From the IMG/VR virus record IMGVR_UViG_3300027659_000015, positions 1 to 64,000 of that record: a DNA stretch of 64,000 nucleotides. The stretch is one strand, 5' to 3'. The stretch is from a virus. The notes beneath the pieces are model-generated. The model made no database searches. It saw only the letters and a program-made list of their open reading frames with translations, and had not been told where the DNA came from. This document shows positions 17,984 through 28,598 of the stretch, in pieces. Within the stretch, counting starts at the first letter, position 1. Each line of letters starts with the position of its first letter. Position numbers and translations under genes: made by a program.

Positions 17984-19414
17984 TTAAACAACTCTCGTTG
18001 AATTGTATATTGTCCGTTGGAAAGTTTCTTCCATATTACGGACAGAAGGCATAACAATTTTCTTTTGTTGTGTTTGAGTTTTATTCACAACACTATTATT
18101 TGTTATTGTTGAATCAGTTGAATTTGTAACTGCCTGTAAATTCAATTTCATATTCTCATTTGTTTTGGCAGTTACAGCAGCTGATGTTGGTGCTGCTGTA
18201 ACTGGTTCTGCTGTTGAAGCCGGACCAATTAACTTAGGTGGTGATGTTTTTTCTGTATTTGCTGGTGATGCAGGTGCCGATAAATCTTTTCTTTTACCTG
18301 TTGTTGGATCATAATAGGCACCAAATTGTTCATCCCATTTAGCTTCTTTACTGGCTTTAGCAAGGCCTTGGCCGGCAAATATTGCTTTTGGTGTAACACT
18401 TGCTGCCATATCACTCATAGCGTTTCGTGCTTCTGGTACAGCAACTTGACCTGTTGCAATGGTGGCTTTTAATTTTTCTTCACCACCAGCAGCCAAGATT
18501 TCTTTTTTATCACCTCTATCTAAAATCTCTTGTGCTTTGGCTGGTCCTTCTTTGATAATGGATTCCAATTTTTCACGGCCACCAGCAGCATCAATATCTT
18601 TTTGACTTCCATTTTTTAAAATGTTGGCAGCTTCAGTTGGATCCAAAGCTTTCATATTTGATGTGTTCTTTGCTGCACTATCTAACAAGAACCATAAAGC
18701 AGCAAATCCAGAAACGGCAAGAAATGCAGGACTTAATAATAGACCTAACAGATTACTACTCATAAGTTTTAGTAGTGGTTTTAAATCTTTCACCCATTCA
18801 AAAACCCGCATGGATGTATCAATCATATCTTGAATCATTTGTTTGATACTATCAAAAATACCATCAAATAATCCTGGTCCTGATTTAACTTTACTAGCAG
18901 TTCCATTACCAAAGCCAACTTTTTCCAAGGTCTTTAATAGTTTTTTGTGCCGTCTTTCATCTTCATGTTTTTCACCTTCTCGGAGATTGTTTTCTTTCTC
19001 TCTAAGAATCATATCATCTTCATGGCTCTTGTGTAAGAATGTTAATATATCATCCAGAACTACTGACATTCCTGTAGTATCTTCACCACTACCTGGTAAT
19101 GAACCAATTCTTTTCTGCCGGCTTGTTACAGGTCGTGCACGACCAGCAAAGAACTCAATATCTTTTCTGGAACGACCCAACATTTTACCAAGAATAGCAG
19201 GACCTAAGCGGGAACCACCAGTAAGTATTTTAGCAATATTGAGTGGATCAAATTTCTGTTTGATACCAGTTATCTTCGCCTTTGTCTTTAATGATATAGT
19301 TTTACCAATGGCAGAACCATAACCTTCACCCATAATGAGTTGGTCAGCAAAAACGGAAGAAAGAGATTGTTCTCTTAATCTTTTGGCTTGTTGGTAATTT
19401 AGTTTATCATTCAT
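17984..19414 (-). CDS. tape-measure/hub-like structural protein with TM segment
   Basis: A 476-residue protein with a helical N-terminal half (KLNYQQAKRLREQSLSS), a highly charged stretch (EKENNLREGEKHEDERRHKK, about residues 140-160) and one strong transmembrane segment (SPAFLAVSGFAALWFLL, about residues 226-243). The Ala/Thr/Asn-rich C-terminus probably adopts beta-repeats. The start overlaps the upstream stop by ATGA, so it is translated with the 512-residue gene. Position after gp26-gp51 is where gp29 or other tape measures lie; a membrane helix fits a protein released into the host membrane on DNA injection. Exact homology not recognised. Confidence 0.65.
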   Translation of the reverse strand: MNDKLNYQQAKRLREQSLSSVFADQLIMGEGYGSAIGKTISLKTKAKITGIKQKFDPLNIAKILTGGSRLGPAILGKMLGRSRKDIEFFAGRARPVTSRQKRIGSLPGSGEDTTGMSVVLDDILTFLHKSHEDDMILREKENNLREGEKHEDERRHKKLLKTLEKVGFGNGTASKVKSGPGLFDGIFDSIKQMIQDMIDTSMRVFEWVKDLKPLLKLMSSNLLGLLLSPAFLAVSGFAALWFLLDSAAKNTSNMKALDPTEAANILKNGSQKDIDAAGGREKLESIIKEGPAKAQEILDRGDKKEILAAGGEEKLKATIATGQVAVPEARNAMSDMAASVTPKAIFAGQGLAKASKEAKWDEQFGAYYDPTTGKRKDLSAPASPANTEKTSPPKLIGPASTAEPVTAAPTSAAVTAKTNENMKLNLQAVTNSTDSTITNNSVVNKTQTQQKKIVMPSVRNMEETFQRTIYNSTRVV

Positions 19415-20949
19415 TTATTTTGACCCTTAGAGATTAATGCATTTGTTTCATTTGGTTTTGAAGTTGTGCCTTCTTCTGGTTTATTTGTATTCTGATTTAT
19501 AACACTTAGATTCTGTTGGTTTTCTACCTTTTGTTGTTGAGCATTAAGTTCTTTTTTACCGTCAGCATTTTCTTTAGATGATTGATTTAATTTTTCTCCA
19601 TTATCTTGTGATGCATGTGGTGACTTTAAACCGTGTTTATTTAATCTACCAGCTAATATACCTTCGAAACCTGAAGCTTTTATTGTTGCCAATTCTTTAT
19701 TCGTTTCACCGTGTACAGGATTAGGCAATTTAGCATCAAGTAATGCCTGTTGAACCGTCATATCGGAATCTTTTCTGTCATAGATTGCTTTAGCACCACC
19801 TGCGCCAATATAATGTGCCATGTATTCATAACCAGGAGTTGTTGGAACACCCAATCGTCTTAGTGTAGCAAGGTCTTGTTCATGCAACATATTAAAGAAT
19901 TTTTCTTGTACTTCTGGAGTAAATTTTGTGGTTTTGAGATCAAGTTTAGATTGTTGTACTAAGCCAGGCGCAAAATAATCTTTTCCAGTTTTATCTTTTT
20001 TAAATTGACCAAACAATGTTGAGTTCATAAATTGATATTTACCCATAGCACTAGTTGATGGTGAGATTTTATTTCTCTCTTTACCTAACATATCAACTTC
20101 TTCTAAAGTTAAATCAGTTAATTTTTTACCAAAACGTTTTTCTGGACTCATATTTTTGCCAGCAATAACATTTCCTTTTTTATCTACTTTATCACCAAAT
20201 GTAATATCATAATTTCCACCACCTTCCGCAGCACCAATTGCAGATGCTGCTGTACCAGTAACAACTGCTGTACCAGCAACTTTAGCTGCACTCGGTAAAA
20301 CTGATGGAGTTTCTTCTTTTTTTGCAGTAGTCTTTGTTACCTCTTGTGACTTTTTTGTTTCTTCTTTTTTAACTTTTTCAGCAGATTGTTCAGATTTCTT
20401 TTCTTCTACCTTTTTCTCTGGTGGTTTCTTTTCAGGTGGCTTCTTTTCTTCTACCTTTTTCTCTGGTGGTTTCTTTTCAGGTGGTTTCTTTTCTTCTACC
20501 TTTTTCTCTGGCTCTTTTTTCTCTGATGGTTTCTTTTCTTCAGGTTTCTTTTCTTCAGGTTTCTTTTCTTCAGGTTTCTTTTCTTCAGGTTTCTTTTCTT
20601 CAACCTTCTTTTCTTTTTTTACTTTTGGTGGTTTTGGTGGCTTACGAGCAGTTAACGCCTTGATGATTTCATTATTGCGTCTATCTTTTTCGTGTTTCTG
20701 TTCTTCAATATAAGAACTTGCCATTTCTTGTGTGGCTTTACGATCCTCATCCATAAGTTTCATCATCTTGAAGATTTCACCCAATGTCTCGGTTGGACCT
20801 GAAGGATGTGGTATGACGTTTTCTGGTTTCTTGGTGAATAATTTTCCGACAGACGAAGCCACCTTCTTGGCACCACCAAGAGCAGATTTACCGACACGAC
20901 TAAACATCGAGCTGGCTTTTTTCTTTGTATCGTCCGAAGGTTTTGCCAT
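19411..20949 (-). CDS. tape-measure/hub protein with lysozyme-like (SLT) domain
   Basis: A 512-residue protein. Residues about 105-200 are an extreme Lys/Glu/Pro linker of EEKKP and PPEKK repeats. From residue 238 a transglycosylase-like domain begins: AAEGGGNYD with E242 as the likely catalytic glutamate, ISPSTSAMGKYQFM (295-308) and YMAHYIGAGGAKAIY. These are typical of goose-lysozyme/SLT folds in phage tail proteins. The C-terminus is Asn/Gln-rich. It lies directly after gp51, the tape-measure position. Its lysozyme domain may replace the one missing from gp5 here. Confidence 0.7.
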   Translation of the reverse strand: MAKPSDDTKKKASSMFSRVGKSALGGAKKVASSVGKLFTKKPENVIPHPSGPTETLGEIFKMMKLMDEDRKATQEMASSYIEEQKHEKDRRNNEIIKALTARKPPKPPKVKKEKKVEEKKPEEKKPEEKKPEEKKPEEKKPSEKKEPEKKVEEKKPPEKKPPEKKVEEKKPPEKKPPEKKVEEKKSEQSAEKVKKEETKKSQEVTKTTAKKEETPSVLPSAAKVAGTAVVTGTAASAIGAAEGGGNYDITFGDKVDKKGNVIAGKNMSPEKRFGKKLTDLTLEEVDMLGKERNKISPSTSAMGKYQFMNSTLFGQFKKDKTGKDYFAPGLVQQSKLDLKTTKFTPEVQEKFFNMLHEQDLATLRRLGVPTTPGYEYMAHYIGAGGAKAIYDRKDSDMTVQQALLDAKLPNPVHGETNKELATIKASGFEGILAGRLNKHGLKSPHASQDNGEKLNQSSKENADGKKELNAQQQKVENQQNLSVINQNTNKPEEGTTSKPNETNALISKGQNK

Positions 20950-20950
20950 T

Positions 20951-21082
20951 TTACTTTCTTAGTTTTTCTTTTATCTTCTGGTTCTCTTCCTCAATATACT
21001 GTATCAGCATTGCAACATATATGTCCCTCTCCCATGGCATCATATTATCTAGTTCTGTCAAACTGTACTTATGGTGTTGCAT
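20951..21082 (-). CDS. 51: gp51-like baseplate hub assembly protein
   Basis: A 43-residue frame, MQHHKYSLTELDNMMPWERD and on to EEENQKIKEKLRK, matches the short gp51-type baseplate assembly catalysts of T4-like phages (HxxYSLTELDxMxPxERxIYVAxLxQYIxEEN). The same frame is open upstream through the end of gp26 to the slippery site at 21139-21145, and no good ribosome binding site precedes the ATG. Expression as a gp26-gp51 frameshift fusion is therefore likely. The stop lies 1 nt before the next ATG. Confidence 0.75.
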   Translation of the reverse strand: MQHHKYSLTELDNMMPWERDIYVAMLIQYIEEENQKIKEKLRK

Positions 21083-21132
21083 CAAAGAAAAATTAGTTTT
21101 ATAATAATTCTTTAAATCGTCATGGCGAAAGG

Positions 21133-21858
21133 TTATCCGAAAAAACTTTCGAGTCCCTCCACATTAATCACATGATGGAAACCACACTTGGTACAAGTCA
21201 TTTCGACTTTTTCTTTTAACTTTGGTAAGTTATTAAAGAATTCTTCAATCTTCATAAATTGTTCTTGGTTCATACCTTCAACAAACTGTACCATCTCAGC
21301 AATTGGTGTCTCATGTCCATAATAGAACTGTTCACCATCATAGATGTATTCAATACTTTGTGCCAGCATATTAAAGGTAATATCAGTATCACTTTCCATA
21401 TTGATAGAATCTTTGACAATACCAAACTCAGGGTATTTCATCTTAATCATTAATTTGTCGGTGAGTTGAATCTCCGGTGAAATTTTTTCATCGATTTCAA
21501 CCTTGACATTTAGCAAATTCAGATTTGACTCCATTAGGTTGTTACATTCTTTTTCATTCACAACATTGTTACAACGGTACTTTGAATCAACAACTTCACC
21601 AACAGATTTTGCTCTAAGGTTGATGAAATAGAATTCAACGTCAACTATAGGTAACTTCTCAATATCTACACCTTCAGTCAAGGTACAATTATAAAGAATG
21701 TCACGAATAGCAGAATGTGCGGCTGAAGAATCATCTGACTCCATAGCCATCAATAAGTTTCTTTGTTCTTTTACAAGAAACGGTCGATAACGAATTTGTT
21801 TTTTGGAAACTGGTAATGTGATATCATATGTTGGCACATCAATTTTTGGTAAAGCCAT
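21133..21858 (-). CDS. 26: gp26 baseplate hub/tail assembly protein
   Basis: A 241-residue protein (T4 gp26 is 208) with AAGGAG before the start. The start MALPKIDVPTYDITLPVSKK and the RYRPFLVKEQRNLLMAMES block are the T4_baseplate (gp26) family hallmark. The C-terminal CTKCGFHHVINVEGLESFF contains a zinc-ribbon-like Cys pair; with two earlier Cys (YRCNN, KECNN) a four-Cys metal site is possible. Family role: needed for baseplate hub assembly, probably as a chaperone. The last codons AGT TTT TTC GGA TAA contain a -1 slippery heptamer. Confidence 0.85.
   Translation of the reverse strand: MALPKIDVPTYDITLPVSKKQIRYRPFLVKEQRNLLMAMESDDSSAAHSAIRDILYNCTLTEGVDIEKLPIVDVEFYFINLRAKSVGEVVDSKYRCNNVVNEKECNNLMESNLNLLNVKVEIDEKISPEIQLTDKLMIKMKYPEFGIVKDSINMESDTDITFNMLAQSIEYIYDGEQFYYGHETPIAEMVQFVEGMNQEQFMKIEEFFNNLPKLKEKVEMTCTKCGFHHVINVEGLESFFG
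21139..21145 (-). promoter_or_regulatory. -1 ribosomal frameshift site T TTT TTC (gp26 to gp51)
   Basis: On the minus strand the heptamer T TTT TTC lies in the gp26 frame (AGT TTT TTC), two codons before the TAA. Slipping back one base continues CGG ATA ACC and stays open for 62 codons into gp51. The fusion would be about 302 residues. Confidence 0.7.
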
Positions 21859-21876: not shown

Positions 21877-22407
21877 TCAAAATATAGAATTGTTTCTCCA
21901 ATAGGTATAGGCAAAGGTAACGGATAATTTATGTATACCGTCATTATTCCAATCCAAATCTAATTGGTTTACAGAAACAGGAAAAGCCTCAAACAAATCA
22001 ACAGAGTATGACATTTTGTTTGAAACATCATACTGATTGATTGTAATAGTTGTGGAATATTCATCCTTGTATGCGTAGTTGTTGTTTAGATATGGATTGA
22101 TAAAATCAAACCAAGCATCAAACATATACTTTTGCTTCATATCATCGTCAACCAAGAATGTAAGGTCGATATCTGTATATGATGTTAGGTGTGGATATTT
22201 TTCAATTGGACCATAAGTCTTTTGTTCGTGCATTTCAAATGTACGGCCAGGTAAAACAGCATTCTCACACCTGTACATCAAGCTTCTACTTGTAACCAAT
22301 GGTGTACCAAATAGAATAACTGGAACAGGAATAAGAACATCGAATCTGCTTGGCCTTGCTAAATCGGTTGTAAAACTTGCTTTGAAGTCATTAATTGAAC
22401 CTACCAT
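21877..22407 (-). CDS. 54: gp54/gp19-like tail tube-fold protein
   Basis: A 176-residue protein with features of the T4 gp19/gp54 tail tube fold: an N-terminal FKASFTTDLARPSRFDV strand, RCENAVLPGRTFEM (around residues 46-59), a central DIDLTFLVDDD strand, a helix KYMFDAWFDFINPY and the C-terminal VTFAYTYW strand. Next to gp26/gp51 and near gp48 it is best read as the tail tube initiator gp54, but a tail tube subunit cannot be excluded; the sheath and main tube genes are not in this window. Confidence 0.65.
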   Translation of the reverse strand: MVGSINDFKASFTTDLARPSRFDVLIPVPVILFGTPLVTSRSLMYRCENAVLPGRTFEMHEQKTYGPIEKYPHLTSYTDIDLTFLVDDDMKQKYMFDAWFDFINPYLNNNYAYKDEYSTTITINQYDVSNKMSYSVDLFEAFPVSVNQLDLDWNNDGIHKLSVTFAYTYWRNNSIF

Positions 22408-25217: not shown

Positions 25218-26585
25218 ATGGCAGATAATACAGATACACCAGAAGGCGTTGCTTATGGTCCAGAGAGTGCGAGTGTTGATAAGCTGACACTTATCACCGC
25301 TTCAGGCCAAGAAATTGATTTAAAGAAAATGATTATTGAATTTTCTTATTTTGAAGACATTTATAGTTTTGTTGTATCTGGTTCGGTATCGATTCGTGAC
25401 GGTCAAGGTCTAATTGAAAGATGGCAAATAACTGGTGGTGAATTTTTGGATGTTGATTTTGGTAGAGTAAAAGGTTCCGACACAAATACCTCCCGAAAAT
25501 TTCGAGTGTATAAACTAGGTGACAGAAAAGCTATTGAGAATTTGAACTCAGAAGTATTTACTTTACATTTTTGTTCTGAAGAATTACTTTTATCTGAACA
25601 AAACAAAGTTACAAAATCATACTCAAACAAAGGTTCAGGAGAAGAAATACACAAAACAGTAACTGCAATACTTAGAGAAGAATTGAAAGTTAAAAAAGAT
25701 TTATATATTGAAAATACCCGTGGAATTTATAGCTTTGTTATACCTAGAATTAAACCTTTGGAAGCCATAAGTTGGTTGTCAACATATGCAAGGCCGGAAT
25801 CACAGGCTTTGGCTGGTGCTGATATGTTGTTCTACGAAAATAAAGATGGTTTTAATTTTAAATCAATACGAAGCTTACTGAATCAAACACCTTATAGAAC
25901 ATATAATTATCAACAAAATAATACAGATTCAACATTAGAACAAAAAGCTTCATCAGTATTACAATATGAATTTATAAAATCCTATGATGCTCTGAATGAA
26001 ATTAGTTCTGGTACATTTGCCAACAGATTAATATCTGTAGATCCGGCAACAAGGTCATATAAGATTACTGATTTCGATTATAACAAATATAAAACAACAT
26101 CTAAACCCGCCAATGGTAGTGGTTTATTAAATGGTTATGTAAATAGATTGGGTAAGACAGATAATCAAAGTCCACAGAGTGTGGTCAAGGTTGTAATTGG
26201 TAATTCAGAACAATATAAAGTTGGTTATATTAAAGATAAACCTGGTTCTGTTGCAAATGATGTATTTGTGGAGAATTACATACCAAATAGAACAGCACAG
26301 ATTGCTCTAGCCAATTACACATTAGTAAAGGTGGTCGTTCCTGGTGATCCTAACTTGAAGGCCGGCATGACCGTGACCTTTAATATATACTCATTGGCGA
26401 TAGATGGTGATAAGAAAAGATTAGACACAAGATTTTCTGGCAAATATTTGGTTAATGCAGTTCGTCATATTATTCAATCACAAGGTGTATATCAAACAGT
26501 TATGGAATTAGCGAAAGAAAGTTATGAAACAGAATTATCAGCTATCAATAAAACAGCAGATTTACAGGCGGCAATAAATGAGTAG
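25218..26585 (+). CDS. 27: gp27-like baseplate central hub protein
   Basis: A 455-residue protein (T4 gp27 is 391). The N-terminal IDLKKMIIEFSYFEDIYSFV and SGSVSIRDGQGLIERWQITGGE cut in two, and the later FTLHFCSEELLLSEQNKV, are typical of the tube-like domains of gp27/VgrG-type hubs. AISWLSTYARPE (about residues 185-196) and the terminal VRHIIQSQGVYQTVMELAKES fit the second such domain. Role: trimer that connects the gp5 spike to the tail tube. Placement directly before the gp5 OB-fold gene supports this. It overlaps that gene by 8 nt. Confidence 0.82.
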   Translation: MADNTDTPEGVAYGPESASVDKLTLITASGQEIDLKKMIIEFSYFEDIYSFVVSGSVSIRDGQGLIERWQITGGEFLDVDFGRVKGSDTNTSRKFRVYKLGDRKAIENLNSEVFTLHFCSEELLLSEQNKVTKSYSNKGSGEEIHKTVTAILREELKVKKDLYIENTRGIYSFVIPRIKPLEAISWLSTYARPESQALAGADMLFYENKDGFNFKSIRSLLNQTPYRTYNYQQNNTDSTLEQKASSVLQYEFIKSYDALNEISSGTFANRLISVDPATRSYKITDFDYNKYKTTSKPANGSGLLNGYVNRLGKTDNQSPQSVVKVVIGNSEQYKVGYIKDKPGSVANDVFVENYIPNRTAQIALANYTLVKVVVPGDPNLKAGMTVTFNIYSLAIDGDKKRLDTRFSGKYLVNAVRHIIQSQGVYQTVMELAKESYETELSAINKTADLQAAINE

Positions 26586-27765
26586 TTTTTTAGGTAAAGA
26601 TGGTTACGTTTGGTGGGTAGGTGTTGTTGAAAACATTGAAGATCCATTAAAATATGGCCGTTGTAAAATTAGAATATTTGGTTGGCATACAGAAAATTTA
26701 CAGTTATTACCAACCAAAGATTTACCATGGGCTGCGCCGGCTTCTGCAACAAATAGTTCAGGTTCTTTTTCTGTACCAACACCAGGAGATTATGTAACTG
26801 GTTATTTTGCTGATGATGGTTCTGGCCAAGTTCCATATTACACAGCAGTTTTACCTGGAATTCAAGCAAATCCACCAGATATATCTAAAGGTTTCTCACC
26901 ACAAAGATTAAATCCAGCCGCTGCGGAAACGCAAGAAGAGATTGCTACACCAAAATTACCTGCTGGTGTTATTGCCAATGCAATTGGTATGCCGACTATT
27001 GCACCTACTGCAATGGGTATTCTTGCTAATACAGGTATATCACTAACAAATGCTTCATTGGGTCATGCCTGTGATTTTAGATATGCATTCAATTTCAACC
27101 TTGGTGTTAGTTCATTAGGTTTAATTAATCCTGTAAGTGCTATTCAAAATGCCATGAAAAGCGGTAAGAATAAAGCAGCCATGTTAATATCAGCATTTAT
27201 TTCACAATTGAATGATACATTTAGGTTGACAATAAAAGGTATTCTATTCACATTAAATTTGGATCCTAGTGGCGTCTTAGCTGGTGCATATTCGTATGTA
27301 AAGAAAATTGTTAGAATGATTAATGAAATTACAATTAAGATTGCTAAAGTGGTTGAGATTGTTTCGGCTGTATATTATTTAATACAAGACATACAGAAAA
27401 TTATTGATTACTTAAAGAATTTGCCTGCTCGTTTCTTGGCGATGGTACAAGATTGTATTACAAACTTTTTAGGTGGTATCAAAAACTTCACTTCACAAAT
27501 TTTATCAATACCAGGTGCTGTTGGTAATTCAATACAAAACATTGCTTCTAGTTTGACTGGTTCAGCGGATAGTATGGTATCAACATTGAATGCTGCATCT
27601 TCTGCTTATCCATTACCAGATTCATTAAAAGGTTTGTTTACGGATCCTAGTTTAGACCACACAGTAGTATTACAACAACACATCAATGATACATATGATG
27701 CAAACACCGTGATTGCAACGGCTGAGTCATCAAATTTTGATCCGAATAAGGTACAATGGGCATGA
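26578..27765 (+). CDS. 5: gp5-like hub, OB-fold part (split gp5, no lysozyme)
   Basis: A 395-residue protein. Residues about 5-105 (WWVGVVENIEDPLKYGRCKI, RIFGWHT, LPWAAPASATNSSG, PTPGDYVTGYFADDG) form the OB-fold of T4 gp5/VgrG hubs. The T4 lysozyme domain is absent; instead a long helical region follows (about 130-360, KIVRMINEITIKIAKVVEIV and PARFLAMVQDCITNFLGG). The beta-helix spike is a separate gene that starts in an ATGA overlap at 27762. Confidence 0.82.
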   Translation: MSSFLGKDGYVWWVGVVENIEDPLKYGRCKIRIFGWHTENLQLLPTKDLPWAAPASATNSSGSFSVPTPGDYVTGYFADDGSGQVPYYTAVLPGIQANPPDISKGFSPQRLNPAAAETQEEIATPKLPAGVIANAIGMPTIAPTAMGILANTGISLTNASLGHACDFRYAFNFNLGVSSLGLINPVSAIQNAMKSGKNKAAMLISAFISQLNDTFRLTIKGILFTLNLDPSGVLAGAYSYVKKIVRMINEITIKIAKVVEIVSAVYYLIQDIQKIIDYLKNLPARFLAMVQDCITNFLGGIKNFTSQILSIPGAVGNSIQNIASSLTGSADSMVSTLNAASSAYPLPDSLKGLFTDPSLDHTVVLQQHINDTYDANTVIATAESSNFDPNKVQWA

Positions 27766-28598
27766 GTGAAATACCAAGTTTCTATAAAGGTTGGAACGAA
27801 CCGGAATCAGCAGCAAACACCGATTACAAACCGGTTTATCCATTCAATAATGTCACACAGACAAGGTCTGGACATATGTTTGAATTGGATGATACAAACA
27901 CAAGAGAAAGAGTTCGTTTACAACATCGTTCAAATACATTCTTTGAGATGCATCCAAATGGTGATTATGTACACAAGGTGTTTGGTGATGGTTATGAAAT
28001 CGTTGTTAAAAATAAGAATGTATTAATCAAAGGAATATGTAACATAACTATTGAGGGTGATGCATATGTTTATGTTAAGGGTGATAAGGTTGAACAAATT
28101 GATGGTAATTTAGAACAGCATGTAAAAGGTAATTACACACAGGTTGTAGAAGGTTTATCTAACATCACTTCACAAGGCAACATGAGAATTGATGCCGGTT
28201 CGGGATTAGTAGGTTCATTAACACTTAGTGCGGGTGATGTAGTGAACTTAAATGCTGATTTAAATGTTGATGGTGAGGTTGTTGCTGACAAAATATATTC
28301 TACTGGTCGTATTGATGCTTTTGGTGGTATTAGTGCTGGTCCCGCTGGTTTTGTTTCTATATTAGGTGGTTTATCAATAGGATATCCAGTTGCCGTGACG
28401 GGTCAAATACTTTGTATTGGTAGTATAAATTCAGCAACATTAATAAATGCTGGTATTTCTGTTAATGCGCCGACTGGTAAGTTTGGTTATATGTCGGCAG
28501 GATTAATGACAGACGTTGTGAATACATCAATATATGATTCTCACATACATATTGCAAGGTTTGGTCCGACAACACCTCCATTAACTCCAATGGTCTAA
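27762..28598 (+). CDS. 5: gp5-like beta-helix spike with HxH tip
   Basis: Start chosen at 27762 in an ATGA overlap; an ATG 6 nt upstream is an alternative. Residues 30-150 contain THSGHMFELDDTNT-like (TRSGHMFELDDTNTRERVRL), GDYVHKVFGDGYEIV and then short strands (NVLIKGICNITIEGDAYVYV, KGDKVEQIDGNLEQHVKGNY). These are the spike beta-helix repeats of gp5C/VgrG. The C-terminus SHIHIARFGPTTPP has an H-x-H motif like the metal-binding tip of other phage spikes. Role: pierces the outer membrane at infection. Confidence 0.85.
   Translation: MSEIPSFYKGWNEPESAANTDYKPVYPFNNVTQTRSGHMFELDDTNTRERVRLQHRSNTFFEMHPNGDYVHKVFGDGYEIVVKNKNVLIKGICNITIEGDAYVYVKGDKVEQIDGNLEQHVKGNYTQVVEGLSNITSQGNMRIDAGSGLVGSLTLSAGDVVNLNADLNVDGEVVADKIYSTGRIDAFGGISAGPAGFVSILGGLSIGYPVAVTGQILCIGSINSATLINAGISVNAPTGKFGYMSAGLMTDVVNTSIYDSHIHIARFGPTTPPLTPMV

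Follow-up and report, generated by a model that had tools for sequence, protein, structure and literature searches.

Is gp51 of a T4-like phage a small gene of its own, or is it the far end of gp26, reached by ribosomes that change frame? The question is raised by the minus strand of the window analysed here, which comprises bases 1-64000 of a 105,721-base IMG/VR virus record. Many tailed phages make their tail assembly chaperone (TAC) by a -1 frameshift, and Xu, Hendrix and Duda reportedly described in 2004 the lambda G/GT frameshift as well as other TAC loci of siphophages and myophages. A first-pass annotation of the window had proposed that gp26 and gp51 are joined in this way, just upstream of the tape-measure genes, and that they are the equivalents of lambda G and GT. 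The TAC genes of T4-like phages were identified by Vladimirov, Gautam and Davidson (Virology 2022), according to PMC10885494 and PMC12846349, which cite their study. In the account given by PMC10885494 some T4-like phages do not frameshift but encode the short form and the long fusion in two separate genes, and PMC12846349 refers to the same study on the poly-T slip signals of TAC-N genes in T4-like phages. Going by these two citing papers, T4-like TACs with poly-T slip sites have already been reported and the kind of system is therefore known. The window locus is a new, strongly supported example of this known frameshift-made chaperone, to which the Shine-Dalgarno (SD)-like element, the wide distribution of T TTT TTN and a variant in the Ackermannviridae may be additions.

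Sequence collection

Relatives were gathered from IMG/VR by queries with gp26 and gp51, plus the gp26 sequences of P-SSM2, Aswh_1, LIMEstone1 and pf16. The features of the locus are:

21133..21858, minus strand: gp26 ORF, 241 aa, candidate short chaperone form (TAC-N, lambda G equivalent)
21155..21160, minus strand: SD-like GGAGGG, 9 nt before the heptamer, probable 5' stimulator
21139..21145, minus strand: slippery heptamer T TTT TTC, in-frame, near the gp26 end
20951..21139, minus strand: gp51 module in the -1 frame, 62 codons plus stop, putative C-terminal extension of the long form
20951..21858, minus strand: predicted frameshift product gp26-gp51, 302 aa (240 + 62)

The gp26 gene and its slip site

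The product of gp26 matches Pfam family T4_baseplate (PF12322; E 5.7e-57, 193 bits at a cut-off of 24.5) and positions 5-232 of the 282 of phrog_150 (E 2.5e-61). In the 0 frame the gene ends with GAA AGT TTT TTC GGA TAA, the stop codon being at 21135-21133. The heptamer and a -1 frame that stays open for 62 codons up to the gp51 stop had been given by the first-pass annotation, and both are exact to the base. Among the 36 window ORFs (17,022 codons) in-frame T TTT TTN occurs 11 times. Of the XXXYYYZ sites that lie no more than 15 codons from an ORF end, the gp26 site alone is followed by a long open -1 frame (64 codons); at the two others this frame is open for 2 codons each.

Conservation of the site

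In-frame T TTT TTN was found in 250 of 269 distinct junctions (last base of the heptamer C in 224, T in 21, A in 4 and G in 1), and a homologous -1 gp51 frame accompanies it across all 250, so that the comparison of gp26-gp51 junctions proposed earlier as a check on the frameshift came out in its favour. The 19 junctions without a counted site belong to Ackermannviridae, to T4-type phages, to Vibrio phage D533 and to two loci with a broken gp26; all 250 distinct junctions outside the Ackermannviridae and the T4-type with an intact gp26 (D533 aside) keep the heptamer. Clustered by protein identity, the 329 loci with the heptamer give 148 groups at the 90% level and 30 at the 50% level. The site is also present in 54 of 54 distinct loci that were retrieved only via gp26 peptides away from the junction, and the search therefore did not select for it. 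Conserved in these 54 loci and in the 250 distinct junctions, a heptamer at the gp26 end is far beyond what chance would be expected to give.

Cultured phages that carry the site include Prochlorococcus phage P-SSM2, S-WAM1, Pelagibacter phage Mosig, pf16, Desulfovibrio 7757, Marzo, Xanthomonas X1, Aswh_1 (Straboviridae), RHph_I34 and Vibrio D486, and the groups represented include Kyanoviridae, Straboviridae, Pootjesviridae and Menderavirus. Synechococcus phage S-PM2 is a further cultured relative in which gp51 is arranged in this -1 manner. Across 54 diverse gp26 genes the third positions are invariant in the codon before the slip (AGT, AAT or GAT) and in TTT, and the next slip codon is TTC in 49, TTA in 4 and TTT in 1. 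The three slip codons are the top 3 of the 27 two-fold columns of gp26; by synonymous identity they take ranks 1, 1 and 3 among 234 columns.

Loci L140 and L158 and phage Mosig were considered as exceptions and rejected as such, all three carrying the same heptamer; they looked different because the 0-frame stop sits about 7 codons further on. At loci L086 and L122 the gp26 frame is broken upstream by a stop or an indel and the junction with its six T and C is intact; these breaks are probably sequencing or assembly errors.

The -1 frame and its lack of a start

From the first -1 codon past the heptamer, CGG at 21139, the 62 sense codons read RITFRHDDLKNYYKTNFSLMQHHKYSLTELDNMMPWERDIYVAMLIQYIEEENQKIKEKLRK and the frame terminates at TAA 20953-20951. 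From its very first residue this gp51 module matches phrog_634 (baseplate hub assembly catalyst; E 9.8e-30), it also matches the C-terminal part of phrog_150 (232-276), and its predicted structure consists of three helices (pLDDT 84). In 36 relatives of equal length pN/pS in the -1 frame is 0.10 in codons 1-18, which precede the first ATG, and 0.11 beyond, and it is above 1 in both other frames of the region; at the synonymous sites of this alignment pS is 0.79, which is near saturation. Judged by these sequences, strong purifying selection acts on the -1 frame, which is very probably translated from the slip onward.

The earliest candidate starts in the gp51 frame are TTG 21085 and ATG 21082, codons 19 and 20 after the heptamer, and no SD-like motif precedes either of them in the window. 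In 59 of 69 clusters both the stretch ahead of the slip and the opening 15 codons of gp51 are free of ATG; when GTG and TTG are counted too, the start-free clusters drop to 36 of 69. The earlier remark that the gp51 ATG has no ribosome binding site holds for the relatives as well, where an SD-like motif lies before the first downstream gp51 ATG in 1 of 64 clusters and before the gp26 ATG in 65 of 68. A number of lineages (L171, L166, L170, L169/L260-L262 and L172) have an ATG in the gp51 frame that overlaps the gp26 stop (TAATG or TGATG), and could therefore also make the free gp51 module by translational coupling.

Candidate stimulatory elements

The anti-SD duplex predicted at GGAGGG has an energy of -9.8 kcal/mol in the window, and predicted pairing with the 16S tail is strongest 6-9 nt upstream of the heptamer. 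Mean anti-SD pairing is about -6.7 to -6.9 kcal/mol in 55 clusters and -6.7 kcal/mol over the 250 junctions; random gp26 positions have a mean of -1.7 kcal/mol. Synonymous-codon shuffles reach -4.9 kcal/mol, with the real sequences being stronger in 42 of the 55 clusters, and a conserved Val-Glu-Gly accounts for part of the predicted SD-like signal. GGAGGG is likely the stimulator of the frameshift.

Downstream of the site the window has a hairpin with a z of -2.8 for 60 nt, and the mean z over 30 sequences is -1.45. RNAalifold on 40 sequences gave neither a conserved downstream structure nor covariation, for which reason a downstream hairpin or pseudoknot was rejected as conserved stimulator. 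Some prokaryotic frameshift sites function without downstream structure. In E. coli dnaX an SD-like stimulator about 10 nt upstream of the heptamer acts together with a downstream hairpin; the upstream element is common to dnaX and the window, whereas the dnaX hairpin has no conserved counterpart among the relatives of the window. Given the SD-like element and no conserved 3' structure, we therefore infer a dnaX-like, SD-stimulated shift that operates without 3' structure.

Identity of the two products

The 302-aa fusion, with predicted junction residues ...ESFF-RITF..., gives a single continuous match to phrog_150, positions 5-276 of 282, with 246 bits versus 208.6 for gp26 alone. T4 gp51 spans positions 13-280 of this profile and T4 gp26 only the first part, 14-235; the short and long products of the window therefore correspond to T4 gp26 and gp51. 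Since the fusion matches a profile that covers full-length T4 gp51, the data support a putative tail assembly chaperone that has gp26 as its short and gp26-gp51 as its long form.

T4 resembles the window in that both gp26 proteins match the N-terminal part of phrog_150, and both T4 gp51 and the window fusion match the whole profile. The difference is in how the forms are encoded: T4 has separate genes on opposite strands where the window has one gene and a -1 shift. T4 gp26 lacks the slip site, with GAG TTC TTT at the corresponding position, and T4 gp51 is a full-length long form rather than a detached C-domain. Aeromonas phage 31 and Acinetobacter phage KARL-1 likewise have gp26 and gp51 on opposite strands, and T4-type phages therefore cannot make the pair by frameshifting. 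The equation of gp26 and gp51 with G and GT thus stands for gp26 and the gp26-gp51 fusion of the window, but not for T4 itself with its separate, opposite-strand genes.

The AF2 model of gp26 has a pLDDT of 85, and Foldseek lists the HK97 chaperone 2ob9 among its top matches by probability (0.41), with an E of 1.5 that is not significant; a PDB sequence search with the gp26 profile gave no match. Two pairs of cysteines also occur in the gp26 protein, one (C-x8-C) around residue 96 and the other (C-x2-C) close to the C-terminus; they are mostly conserved in relatives and suggest a zinc-ribbon-like element.

Proposed mechanism and alternative explanations

The long form of the chaperone, gp26-gp51, is very probably made by -1 ribosomal slippage. 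The sequences themselves show the site, the frame, selection acting on the -1 codons, that no other start is available, and the homology to T4 gp26 and gp51; the slippage itself and its efficiency, the role of the stimulator and the chaperone function are inferred. The majority of ribosomes would finish at the gp26 stop and yield the 241-aa short form. A minority would pause as GGAGGG pairs with 16S rRNA just upstream of the heptamer, upon which the two Phe-tRNAs on TTT TTC could move back by one base onto TTT TTT, and translation would continue in the -1 frame for 62 codons to give the 302-aa fusion, in which gp26 carries the RITFRHDDLKNYYK segment. If these forms act as lambda G and GT do, the short one would coat the tape-measure protein, the gp51 extension would recruit tail-tube or hub components, and both forms would depart before the virion is completed. 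The frameshift put forward by the first-pass annotation is thus supported by the conserved site, by selection on the -1 frame and by the lack of a gp51 start.

In public records gp51 has a gene entry of its own, and one could take it as a small gene that starts at TTG 21085 or ATG 21082, perhaps termination-coupled, with the slippery run being incidental. An ATG does overlap the gp26 stop in Limestone-type Ackermann phages, Vibrio D486, Marzo and RHph_I34, but the last three retain the heptamer despite this overlap. The first start in the window follows 18 conserved codons that are under the same purifying selection as the remainder, so that a separately started gp51 would be without its conserved N-terminal third, and the SD-like site that precedes gp26 in 65 of 68 relatives is lacking here and present in only 1 of 64 relatives. 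A gene of its own is therefore very unlikely. It is likewise exceedingly improbable that RNA polymerase slips on the T run and leaves a fraction of the mRNAs frame-shifted. The site is indeed a homopolymer run of six T, but such transcriptional slippage usually requires longer runs, and the codon phase of the run (X XXY YYZ) does not vary across 250 junctions. In the Ackermannviridae, moreover, a homologous -1 frame persists where the run is only four T long, and a conserved SD-like element at a spacing that is relevant for ribosomes fits ribosomal slippage only.

A different matter is whether a real frameshift here serves a chaperone. Annotations of T4 list gp26 and gp51 as components of the baseplate hub, the genes downstream lack a tape-measure match and the match to the HK97 chaperone fold is weak, all of which would fit gp26 and gp51 as baseplate-hub assembly factors that do not wrap a tape measure. 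We consider this improbable. Two isoforms and an adjoining tail-tube-like gene fit TAC loci, T4 gene 51 heads a run 51-27-28-29 in which gene 29 is the tail-length gene, and T4-like TAC genes have, by the citations in PMC10885494 and PMC12846349, already been identified in a published study.

Comparison with known systems

The likeness of lambda G/GT to the window is one of architecture: both have a short protein with a -1 fused C-terminal extension, a heptamer near the end of the first frame and adjoining tail-tube genes, whereas the lambda heptamer is G GGA AAG and that of the window T TTT TTC. In phage Adele (Vandenendeviridae / Andersonviridae) TAC-N ends with the poly-T slip motif GTTTTT and the -1 frame is always open over 200 bp (PMC12846349). 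Adele and the window are thus alike in having a poly-T slip at the TAC-N end and belong to different phage families. The Ackermannviridae (L169, L260-L277) have no XXXYYYZ; a conserved GA(A/G) ATT TTC AT(T/C) TAA is followed by a homologous -1 gp51 frame. Most members have no ATG at the gp26 stop, and those with TAATT at the junction (L266-L277) have none until about codon 16. They likely use a non-canonical -1 site.

With about even confidence we propose that the ancestral chaperone of the T4 superfamily was made by an SD-stimulated, structure-free -1 shift at T TTT TTN, which later became two genes in T4 and its closest kin, and a conserved non-tandem site that still yields the -1 product in the Ackermannviridae. 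Recoding, rather than a separate gene 51, is indicated as the usual route to the chaperone in T4-superfamily phages beyond T4's own relatives, and annotations of cyanophage and related genomes should therefore treat gp51 as an extension that gp26 gains by frameshifting. The natural series of a frameshift, a non-canonical site and two separate genes offers material for studying gain and loss of recoding, and the locus itself a testable SD-stimulated site without downstream structure.

Neighbouring genes

Three ORFs adjoin the pair:

21877..22407, minus strand: tail-tube-like protein (tail tube or gp54-type tube initiator), just upstream of gp26
19411..20949, minus strand: downstream ORF, 512 aa, possible tape measure by position
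17984..19414, minus strand: second downstream ORF, 476 aa, with a hydrophobic segment, possible tape measure by position

The first product matches phrog_45 (E 3e-36) and Pfam Phage_T4_gp19, and a gp54-type gene is at the equivalent position in Mosig and Aswh_1. The location upstream of tape-measure genes, as the locus was first described, remains positional, since neither downstream ORF has a tape-measure match in PHROGs, Pfam, NCBIfam or BLAST, nor to T4 gp29 by hhalign. In Xanthomonas phage X1 the gene that follows gp51 is similar to the 512-aa ORF (hhalign probability 95.8), and the two have a C-terminal domain in common; the 512-aa protein has a long low-complexity linker, KKPPEKKVEEKK. 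The 476-aa ORF differs in length among relatives, some of which are ended by contig ends. The sole pointer to a tape measure is that the second P-SSM2 gene in matching position has a weak tape-measure match (phrog_4372, E 0.002).

Elsewhere in the window, on the plus strand, a gp5-type hub/lysozyme seems split into ORFs 26578-27765 and 27756-28598, which overlap by 10 nt at a junction where no slippery site leads into a long open -1 frame. The former ORF contains the N-terminal part of gp5 (phrog_430 14-123) and a domain known in tape-measure profiles, the latter a later part of gp5 (phrog_430 327-466).
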